A stretch of 64,000 bases of DNA, taken from NCBI RefSeq assembly GCF_003260975.1, contig NZ_CP030041.1:4405501-4469500 (forward strand), given 5' to 3'. The translations under genes and the position numbers were made by a program. Source of the stretch: Echinicola strongylocentroti (GTDB lineage Bacteria; Bacteroidota; Bacteroidia; Cytophagales; Cyclobacteriaceae). Below, piece after piece: positions 17,870-52,290 of this stretch. Each line of letters opens with the position of its first letter. Position 1 is the first letter of the stretch. The notes under the pieces are model-generated. The model was not told the origin of the DNA and searched no databases. It saw nothing but the letters and a program-made list of their open reading frames with translations.

Positions 17870-17896
17870 TAGATAGGCTAATGCATATTCCGGGTT
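17870..17896 (+). repeat. Dispersed 27-nt repeat abutting element copy A
   Basis: The sequence TAGATAGGCTAATGCATATT followed by CCGGGTT occurs here, at 51511-51537, and reverse-complemented at 13018-13044. In the 13-kb copy it continues as a palindrome; here it is interrupted by the element, which fits insertion of the element into this repeat. Confidence 0.6.
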
Positions 17897-18674
17897 CAAT
17901 GCCGTTTAGTTAGTGTGTATCTGGAAAATATGGGTTCTATATTTTTCCCTTGAGCAGTTATTTTTCTAGCTAAATTCCTAGGTGGTTTTCATCCCTTTAC
18001 CTTTGTTACTTTTTTGCTTCAGGTCAAAAAAGTAACCAAAAAACCCCGCCGCTGTGCATCTATTGGCCTAAAATTAAAACCTTCCCTCATGCAGGCAAAC
18101 TCCTCCTTTTTTAGCTGCCAATATTCTTTTTGGCTAGTATTTCGTCAAACAAGCCTGCCTTCTTGCCTACCCGCTTTTTAATTTCTAAACGCCCAATACC
18201 TGCAAGGCGGATCGGATTAATAAGTTTCTTATGGATAAATTATCATCATTATTCCATGTAGTGGTATATTTTCTTAAGTAACCAAGTTGAGCGAGAACTA
18301 TAAGCCCCCCATAGCCAAAAAAGGTATCGCTTCCTTATTACGGCCCTTGGTATGCCTGTTTTCCAGCCGATGGTGGAGGCCGTTAAGAAAGTGAGTTGGC
18401 TCGCGTCGTGGAACAGCGAGACCCACTCACTTTTAGGTCGTAGCCATCGGGTGGAAATTAAAATGGGTGACGGATCTCGGTCGAAGGGTAAATCCATGTT
18501 CCATTTTAAAAGGCATACCACCGGCCTAGATTTTTTTCTTTCTTTTTTCATCAATGGAAAAAAGGAAAAGGATAAAATCCACCAAGATGATCAGGTTTCT
18601 CCAGCCAAAGTCAATCAAAAAAAGGACTTTTAGGTATATGAAAAGGAGGAAATGCCCTTAACTAAACGGCATTG
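17897..18674 (+). mobile_element. Non-coding MITE-like element with 16-bp terminal inverted repeats, copy A (778 bp)
   Basis: Perfect inverted ends CAATGCCGTTTAGTTA (17897-17912) and TAACTAAACGGCATTG (18659-18674). Flanking direct repeats are ATTCCGGGTT (17887-17896) and GTTTCGGGTT (18675-18684), 8 of 10 matching. No transposase frame is present; the antisense frame at 18249-18554 is only partly shared with copy B. The interior shares long blocks with copy B: a 12-bp hairpin at 18005-18036 (GTTACTTTTTTG, 8-nt loop CTTCAGGT, CAAAAAAGTAAC) and the folded 171-nt core at 18349-18519. It differs from B by indels between blocks. Confidence 0.7.
18349..18519 (+). ncRNA. Conserved branched-structure core of element A (possible structured RNA)
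   Basis: 171 nt, 168 identical to 51921-52091 and without gaps. It can fold as a closing stem GGTATGCC (18349-18356)/GGCATACC (18512-18519). Arm 1 is TTTCCAGCCGATGG (18360-18373)/CCATCGGGTGGAAA (18444-18457, one mismatch here), topped by AAAGTGAGT (18388-18396)/ACTCACTTT (18425-18433) and CTCGC/GCGAG. Arm 2 is TTAAAATGGG (18458-18467)/TCCATTTTAA (18500-18509) with one G-U pair. Whether it is transcribed, and in which direction, is unknown. Confidence 0.45.
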
Positions 18675-18714
18675 GTTTCGGGTTAATCCGATTTTGGTGG
18701 AGAACCAAATAGAA

Positions 18715-51254: not shown

Positions 51255-51510
51255 GGGTTTAGATTGGATCAGGGGACTGATGGAACCCTGATGACGCCAG
51301 GGCGAACGCATTTAAAAAAGTATCCCAGCTTGAATATATATCTGCCGTTCCTATGGGCTAAAAATGAGTGGATCTGGCTTTTTCACTGTACGAGCTAACT
51401 CATTTTCTTAACACCCCATCAACTGTCCCAAAACCGAATGCTCCAACGGTCGAATAAGGGACTCACATCGAAGCGACTGATTTTGTCCGCCGCGGCGGAT
51501 CAGGACGTAA

Positions 51511-51537
51511 TAGATAGGCTAATGCATATTCCGGGTT
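51511..51537 (+). repeat. Dispersed 27-nt repeat abutting element copy B
   Basis: Same sequence as 17870-17896 and the reverse complement of 13018-13044. Its last ten bases, ATTCCGGGTT, reappear directly after the element at 52247-52256. Confidence 0.6.
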
Positions 51538-52246
51538 CAATGCCGTTTAGTTAGTGTGTATTTGGAAATATTGGTTCTATTATTTTTCTGCTAAATTCCA
51601 AGATGGTTTTCATCTCTTTACCTTTGTTACTTTTTTGCTTCAGGTCAAAAAAGTAACCAAAAAACCCCGCCGCTGTGCATCTATTGGCCTAAAATTAAAA
51701 CCTCCCCTCATGCAGGCAAACTCCTCCTGTCTAAAGCCAAGCAGGCCTATCTAAAGTCAGGTAAACCTTCTTTAGCTGCCAACATTCTTTTTGGCCAGCA
51801 TTTCGTCAAACAAGCCTGCCTTTTTGCCCACCCGCTTTTTAATTTCTTAACGCCCAATACCTGCAAGGCGGATTCAGTTAATAAGTCCCAAAAAGGTGTT
51901 GTTTCCATATGACGGCCCTTGGTATGCCTGTTTTCCAGCCGATGGTGGAGGCCGTTAAGAAAGTGAGTTGGCTCGCGTCGTGGAACAGCGAGACCCACTC
52001 ACTTTTAGGTCGTAGCCATCGGCTGGAAATTAAAATGGGTGACGGATCTCGGTCGCAGGGTAAATCCATGTCCCATTTTAAAAGGCATACCACCGGCCTA
52101 GATTTTTTTCTTTCTTTTTTCATCAATGGAAAAAAGGAAAAGGATAAATTCCACCAAGATGATCAGGTTTCCCCAGCCAAAGTCAATCAATAAAAGGACT
52201 TTTAGGTACATGAAAAGAAGGAAATCCCCTTAACTAAACGGCATTG
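51538..52246 (+). mobile_element. Non-coding MITE-like element with 16-bp terminal inverted repeats, copy B (709 bp)
   Basis: Perfect inverted ends CAATGCCGTTTAGTTA (51538-51553) and TAACTAAACGGCATTG (52231-52246), flanked by perfect 10-bp direct repeats ATTCCGGGTT (51528-51537 and 52247-52256), which look like a target-site duplication. Internally it shares with copy A a 12-bp hairpin (51626-51657) and the 171-nt core (51921-52091). No transposase frame. The antisense frames inside it (51878-52126, 51747-51998) and the sense frame 51554-51754 are not conserved full length in copy A, so I take them as non-coding. Confidence 0.72.
51921..52091 (+). ncRNA. Conserved branched-structure core of element B (possible structured RNA)
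   Basis: 171 nt, 168 identical to 18349-18519. In this copy the stems are perfect: closing GGTATGCC (51921-51928)/GGCATACC (52084-52091); arm 1 TTTCCAGCCGATGG (51932-51945)/CCATCGGCTGGAAA (52016-52029) with inner AAAGTGAGT (51960-51968)/ACTCACTTT (51997-52005) and CTCGC/GCGAG; arm 2 TTAAAATGGG (52030-52039)/CCCATTTTAA (52072-52081). The nested order makes a three-way junction. Expression is unproven. Confidence 0.45.
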
Positions 52247-52290
52247 ATTCCGGGTTAAATTAGAATAGCCAAGTAGCGTAACATCCTTAA

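Follow-up and report, generated by a model that had tools for sequence, protein, structure and literature searches.

What does a branched fold that recurs almost unchanged at two places of the Echinicola strongylocentroti chromosome represent? The window analyzed here, a stretch of 64,000 nucleotides of that chromosome, had been predicted from the sequence alone to hold a structured RNA of 171 nucleotides in two copies. To our knowledge, only a small number of bacterial RNAs of unknown function are both large and strongly covarying. The explanation that we favor, with a probability of roughly 0.7, is that the fold belongs to a class of structured RNA of the Bacteroidota, carried as cargo by at least two kinds of DNA transposon that are non-autonomous and lack genes, and probably acting in trans as a passenger. 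Genome comparison establishes the predicted fold, its conservation, its copy number and its presence in two types of transposon, and a working RNA is a likely reading of these sequences.

Two near-identical cores with a branched predicted fold

The original prediction counted 168 identical positions out of 171, without gaps, between 18349-18519 (copy A) and 51921-52091 (copy B), and a pairwise comparison gave exactly this figure. The three differences were also found as described, namely a G/C difference at 18451/52023 that leaves one long-arm position of copy A unpaired, an A/C difference at 18484/52056 within the loop of the second arm and a T/C difference at 18500/52072 that exchanges a G-U for a G-C pair. 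The proposed three-way junction is stable in both copies, with minimum free energies of -80.4 and -87.0 kcal/mol for the two cores and z-scores of about -8 (-8.2 and -8.6; 300 dinucleotide shuffles per copy, none of which reached so low an energy). Strong folding was also seen for the reverse strand of copy A (z -7.9), so folding energy alone cannot pick the strand. The 361-nt stretch surrounding copy A gave a z-score of -6.15. The fold reaches beyond the 171 nucleotides, to 18342-18530, and is then followed by a 3' hairpin (Table 1).

An element of about 750 bp around each core is present dozens of times in the genome, so that the agreement of copies A and B mostly reflects recent duplication and cannot on its own speak for function. 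The reading as RNA was upheld by the relatives described below, which also settled the fold; the argument drawn from two near-identical copies proved weak in itself. The third copy in the window resembles the L350 and L357 loci in its 5' part (51451 to about 51340) and has lost its 3' half, as judged by eye against L350.

Table 1. Features of the two elements and of the third RNA copy in window coordinates; R2 is the wider covariance model.
Feature	Position	Strand	Evidence
TIR1 element A, left terminal inverted repeat (CCGGGTTCAATGCCGTTTAGTTAGTG)	17890..17915	+	
Hairpin A of element A (GTTACTTTTTTG...CAAAAAAGTAAC), belonging to the TIR1 element	18005..18036	+	
RNA core, copy A, three-way junction, 54 model pairs	18342..18530	+	R2 match 167.0 bits, E 6.8e-38; covariation
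171-nt stretch first predicted, the core minus its outermost GGCC/GGCC pairing	18349..18519	+	
3' tail of core, copy A (GGCCTAGA), proposed partner of the hairpin B loop	18523..18530	+	tail/loop co-variation
Hairpin B, copy A, loop ATCAATG, 3' of core	18538..18569	+	
TIR1 element A, right terminal inverted repeat	18658..18682	+	
Third RNA copy, truncated, different subfamily	51271..51451	-	R2 match 64.7 bits, E 1.8e-13
Element B, left terminal inverted repeat	51531..51555	+	
Element B, hairpin A	51626..51657	+	
RNA core, copy B	51914..52102	+	R2 match 171.8 bits, E 5e-39
Hairpin B, copy B	52110..52141	+	homology with copy A
Element B, right terminal inverted repeat	52230..52254	+	

Covariation supports the fold and points to the plus strand

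Fourteen diverse cores, taken from subfamilies of the same genome, from E. shivajiensis and, in one case, from genus g41, were aligned with MAFFT without the use of structure. In this unfitted alignment 32 of the 54 consensus pairs changed on both sides, 94.6% of cells were paired, compared to 82.0% after shuffling and at most 52% with slid partners, and the covariation score of 0.419 (shuffled, 0.187) was reached by none of 500 shuffles. The number of further pair types did not rise above the shuffles in the same alignment (62 compared to 57.2, with 43 of 500 shuffles reaching it). A covariance model, R1, was built from the 14 cores and collected 111 matches from 100 loci. Among 105 distinct rows 47 of the 54 pairs showed two-sided changes and still paired, as did 46 of the 54 in a subset of 48 rows, both alignments being fitted to the model and so biased toward it. 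For the 105 rows, 92.4% of cells were paired, compared to 71.6% in column shuffles, which leave the relatedness among rows in place, and at most 50% with slid partners; the covariation score was 0.540 (shuffled, 0.178). Two pairs failed in more than 40 of the about 100 rows of the large alignment.

Compensatory changes thus go beyond both column shuffles and slid partners, as is expected of a structured noncoding RNA, and the covariation that the original prediction had left to a larger alignment appears in the 105 sequences as well as in the MAFFT alignment made without structure. An RNA-like fold under selection is strongly supported by these comparisons. There were 36 G.T and 5 A.C combinations in the unfitted alignment, and 227 and 61 in the fitted one, an excess of G.T which indicates that the folding strand is the plus strand, as written in the window. 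This strand most likely folds as RNA.

No sign of a conserved peptide

The prediction had favored RNA over protein, in part on the ground that all three differences between the copies would alter amino acids of an antisense peptide. This was confirmed in the only stop-free antisense frame, where all three are non-synonymous. Across 102 rows the three length classes modulo 3 are about equally filled (34/37/31), and a fully open frame was found in 3 and 12 rows on the two strands, compared to 10 and 14 in shuffled sequence, so that open frames are no commoner than in shuffled sequence. These lengths and counts ruled out protein coding on either strand, and the choice of RNA over protein stands on them together with the covariation. 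The antisense ORF at 18249-18554 was dismissed as a gene, some minus-strand frame being open in 12 of 102 rows compared to 14 of 102 shuffled.

A 3' hairpin and a likely pseudoknot

On the 3' side of the core the usual order is a T-run and then hairpin B, whose 5' arm is rich in T and whose 3' arm is rich in A. A script detected such a T-rich hairpin in 89 of 121 loci, and a looser test found some 3' hairpin in 105 of the 121. The arms of hairpin B differ among loci while their complementarity persists, and its loop is often complementary to the last bases of the core, as in the tail/loop combinations CTTGATC/GATCAAG, CTTGACC/GGTCAAG and GCCTTGAT/ATCAAGGC and in the shorter AAGTC/GACTT, AAGGC/GCCTT and AAAGG/CCTTT. 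The longest match between tail and loop averaged 3.93, compared to 3.34 (sd 0.10) with loops re-dealt randomly, a value reached in 0 of 500 trials; this comparison dropped the 32 of 121 loci with no T-rich hairpin, collapsed the other 89 to 59 distinct pairs and left relatedness uncorrected. In most Echinicola copies the contiguous pairing amounts to just 3 bp (GAT/ATC). Pairings of 6-8 bp occur here in Pararhodonellum, Cyclobacterium and the f62 genomes. The co-variation of tail and loop suggests that the two likely form a pseudoknot. The core measures about 190 nt, or roughly 235-250 nt with hairpin B included, and the entire unit of genome G628 (L352) folds at z -10.8.

Neighboring genes show no recurrent partner

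Among 473 ORFs near 71 loci, the two commonest clusters, at 8 and 7 loci, have the look of spurious ORFs from the element itself, and the next one, a sulfatase judged by eye and by Pfam, occurs at 7 of the 71 loci. Apart from the apparently element-derived ORFs, no protein recurred at more than 7 of the 71 loci among the 18 largest clusters. Pfam was run on near proteins, of which 148 were scored out of 158 collected; its commonest family was again sulfatase (6 of 148), DnaB helicase was found for 2 of 148, and no transposase appeared among the 25 commonest of 154 families. PADLOC gave at most 3 proteins per family. A frequent position beside transposase, integrase, nuclease or helicase genes, one of the marks used for the multicopy RNA class termed mobile/repeat sequence candidates (MRSC), was thus not seen, isolated cases being possible. 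Some of the neighbors pointed to polysaccharide operons, but a role there was dropped, as neither orientation nor distance was fixed.

The orientation to the surrounding genes is inconsistent, which is another of these marks. For 28 copies the strands of the upstream and downstream neighbors were (+,+) in 8, (-,+) in 6, (-,-) in 6 and (+,-) in 5, with 3 having no downstream gene in reach; in a second set of 25 with both neighbors known, given relative to the element, they were (-,-) in 11, (+,+) in 7, (+,-) in 6 and (-,+) in 1. All copies inspected lie between genes. Such an intergenic position, together with the T-run and the second stable hairpin 3' of the core in many copies, would suit a cis-acting terminator or insulator, in which transcription would stop at the GGCC-closed junction and the TAGATTTTTT and hairpin B that come after it, making insertions harmless. 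We regard this as quite improbable, as a terminator has no need for a conserved junction, highly conserved internal loops or a co-varying pairing of tail and loop, and the 28 copies take no consistent orientation to their neighbors.

Two types of transposon carry the core

Both window cores sit in an element of about 750 bp, TIR1, with ends CCCGG..CAATGCCGTTTAGTTA. TIR1 without the core is also common. All 20 loci chosen for having no listed core lack the apical core motif, 16 of them with both ends in reach; two members of this core-less set, L145 and L159, retain a 3' remnant of the core. Target duplications were sought in 36 distinct copies with both ends, of which 30 have at least one end abutting another repeat. 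Among the six clean copies, three (L015, L021 and L113) have identical 5-bp flanks (TTTAA or TTAAA), L028 agrees at 4 of 5 positions and L164 at 2 of 5, and L145 has TTTAA twice (5/5) if its left end is set 3 bases outward. TIR1 probably makes 5-bp target duplications, as judged from these few clean copies.

The second type of carrier is an element of about 350-400 bp with ends ATGNNTATC...CAT and 10-bp target duplications. Its ends were recognized in 14 of 19 loci, the other 5 being dropped with ends unrecognized, and the two flanks agreed at 10 of 10 positions in four loci, 9 of 10 in six, 8 in two, 7 in one and 5 in one (9 of 10 with a shift). Further RNA copies have no visible element ends. 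Like miniature inverted-repeat transposable elements (MITEs), the carriers combine terminal inverted repeats with target-site duplications and have no gene that we could see; a conserved RNA is not usually part of how MITEs are defined, but here one is kept across carriers with unrelated ends.

Pattern searches tolerating 2-3 mismatches revealed no autonomous partner sharing the carrier ends. REP/REPIN elements are short palindromes with many intergenic copies that are moved by RAYT transposases. The elements described here resemble them in their many intergenic copies and in the six Y1-transposase matches of the same genome, but differ in that the core is a branched fold of 190 nt and in that the six Y1 loci hold no TIR or core motif within 1.5 kb at up to one mismatch, the only traces within that distance being one CCGGCTTTAA and a few one-mismatch halves of hairpin A.

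Several other repeats were observed around these elements. Hairpin A was rejected as a part of the RNA family, an A-type hairpin being found upstream in just 18 of 121 loci. Hairpins of the type GTTACTTTTTG..CAAAAAGTAACCAAAA lie upstream of some cores (L127, L131, L352, L356 and window positions 18005-18036), some of them with a loop complementary to the sequence directly downstream, and may represent a Bacteroidota repeat in its own right, with an architecture like that of hairpin B. A shorter repeat, CCCGGATTATGCRTTAGGAATCG, has 277 pattern matches in the same genome, ends CCCGG..CCGGG and apparent 5-bp TTAAA/TTTAA duplications. It occurs against element ends and within some RNA copies; in the window, a partial copy at about 17870-17894 directly adjoins element A on its left side. 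In L097 and L100 such a shorter related repeat is inserted with a TTTAA/TTAAA duplication, as seen by eye in comparison with L095/L099 and L096. The single-contig Echinicola genome G047 contains another abundant repeat, TATCCGTAAGAGTGCACGTA, with a related end sequence.

Replication polarity belongs to TIR1

From GC skew and gene direction, the replication origin was inferred to lie at about 3.0 Mb and the terminus at about 0.05 Mb; dnaA, at 1.78 Mb, does not mark the origin. When the border is set at 3.0 Mb, a hand count finds 73 of the 76 left ends of TIR1 elements, with or without the core, oriented in the direction of fork movement. The left ends of the window (17897-17919 and the copy near 51540) are among the 76. 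Genes neighboring TIR1 elements often do not follow the fork. The short repeat with CCCGG ends is not so polarized, with 146 to 131 overall and, for the 100 places listed, 43 plus and 14 minus on the left and 26 plus and 17 minus on the right. In Echinicola genome G482, 44 of the 59 copies listed out of 78 were concordant with the fork, a count that drops to 39 when third-position skew is used to place one of the arm borders, at about 0.6 Mb, and G484 showed no polarity (9 of the 17 copies listed out of 28). Core copies outside TIR1 in the genome of the window are not clearly polarized, with 2 of 5, of the L350 type, being concordant. Since core-less TIR1 elements are polarized and the non-TIR1 copies are not clearly so, the polarity is a feature of TIR1, and its attribution to the RNA was rejected.

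A polarity of this kind is what single-strand transposition would predict, and it bears on the alternative that the fold serves as single-stranded DNA, for example at a replication fork, as a signal for a transposase or recombinase, the RNA form never mattering. Additionally, two genomes of another family have a unit with hairpins at both ends at a shared position but in opposite orientations, and the authors of PMC11109978 allow a DNA form for their mobile or repeat motif. We nevertheless consider this alternative unlikely. The core is not needed for the polarity, given that TIR1 elements are polarized in its absence; cores outside TIR1 are not clearly polarized; and the core occurs in transposons with two unrelated types of ends. 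The excess of G.T over A.C is also that of RNA pairing, a pattern that one DNA strand could yield as well.

Copy number and distribution

In the 6.25-Mb genome of the window at least 52 BLAST matches (pieces) to the 841-bp element around copy A were found with 40 of 221 candidates scored, a 26-base core pattern had 60 sites at up to 3 mismatches compared to 0 for the reversed control, and the covariance model had 79 matches. All 11 Echinicola genomes searched have between 1 and 79 matches each, with 79 in the genome of the window, 78 in G482, 29 in G111, 28 in G484, 21 in G483 and 14, 12, 8, 7, 6 and 1 in the remaining six, the single match being that of G481. Among genomes of the order, R1 was positive in at least 20 of 390, all within Cyclobacteriaceae and in 4 of 130 genera, and R2 was positive in at least 8 of 395 genomes of the class; searches over more than 40 genomes used stricter filters with 6 candidates scored each, and these counts are lower bounds. 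Four of the R2-positive genomes lie outside Cyclobacteriaceae (G628, G657, G503 and, weakly, G840 at E 9e-4), and in the sequences inspected from such genomes the order of parts is unchanged. Other carriers include Belliella aquatica (G476), Pararhodonellum marinum (G050) and Algoriphagus species, and loci of Cyclobacterium and Rhodonellum were added by a DNA pattern and confirmed by R1. The pattern matches L275 (a Chitinophaga MAG), L289 and L327 were excluded, as R2 finds nothing there.

On a 403,959-base contig of Belliella aquatica four RNA copies lie on the same strand within about 35 kb, with long intergenic gaps (L185, L186). In the related genomes G628 and G657 (L369, L371) the unit lies beside a MerR-like gene, named by eye, at the same place in opposite orientations. 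Plasmid and phage collections gave 0 matches to one 261-base query in blastn, and viral contigs gave 0 matches to one exact degenerate pattern; a phage, plasmid or viral origin found no match with these queries and was set aside.

Comparison with known RNA families

Rfam 15 had 0 matches in the window and 0 in 12 relative loci from several genera, and no tRNA or tmRNA was found in the window. A permissive Rfam scan of the window element returned 13 matches with E from 0.23 to 9.3, all far below gathering scores. HEARO was absent from these weak, chance-like matches up to E 10. At the sensitivity used, no known RNA family matched.

HEARO or omega RNAs and IS110 bridge RNAs are structured RNAs within mobile elements. 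The RNA described here shares that setting, which, together with a terminal loop of the second arm that is mostly 27-36 nt long and strongly variable between subfamilies, might suggest a guide RNA of an RNA-directed transposon (an omega RNA of IscB/TnpB type or a bridge RNA of IS110 type). This is very improbable. There is no match of sequence or structure to these RNAs; the combination of an Rfam match and an adjacent IscB/TnpB-type gene that would mark a HEARO or omega RNA was not found, HEARO being missing even from the permissive scan; and no nuclease, transposase or recombinase gene recurs beside the core. Core-less TIR1 elements are mobile, and the loop is nearly identical in most cores of the genome despite their differing places of insertion.

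The MRSC class described in PMC11109978 consists of structured, covarying RNAs with many copies per genome and variable orientation to genes that are possibly selfish. The RNA described here is likewise structured, covarying, multicopy and possibly selfish, with no fixed orientation to genes. One member of the class, MRSC-65-2, is described there as one long stem containing a UYCCGG repeat and is sometimes near a transposase gene; in contrast, the RNA described here has a three-way junction, a likely pseudoknot, two defined types of transposon and no recurrent transposase. The terms Echinicola and Cyclobacter are absent from the main texts of PMC11109978 and PMC8632094. No description of the element was found in the literature covered, mostly outside subscription papers, on noncoding RNAs, repeats and MITEs of Cyclobacteriaceae, Echinicola or Algoriphagus and on repeat families of Bacteroidetes. 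The RNA class is apparently undescribed.

A possible trans-acting passenger RNA

On the preferred reading of a transposon-borne RNA, the RNA would be transcribed from the plus strand, and the folded molecule would act in trans, most likely by binding one protein of the host or a transposase. The contact may be made through the most conserved middle of the core, CGUUAAGAAA ... UUAGCUC / GAGAUCC ... UUUUAGG. The RNA would be copied around the chromosome by its carrier and would spread as a passenger of whichever transposon holds it. A trans function for the host would be odd given 79 copies in one Echinicola genome and 1 in another. It is conceivable, though doubtful, that the RNA is a self-standing mobile gene that acts in trans via a protein partner and switches transposon vehicles across families of Bacteroidota, in which case the RNA would be the unit of selection.

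Finally, a defined core, a likely pseudoknot, new covariance models, 1-79 matches per genome within one genus and one vehicle with precise 10-bp duplications make the purpose of a transposon-borne RNA testable in cultured marine bacteria.
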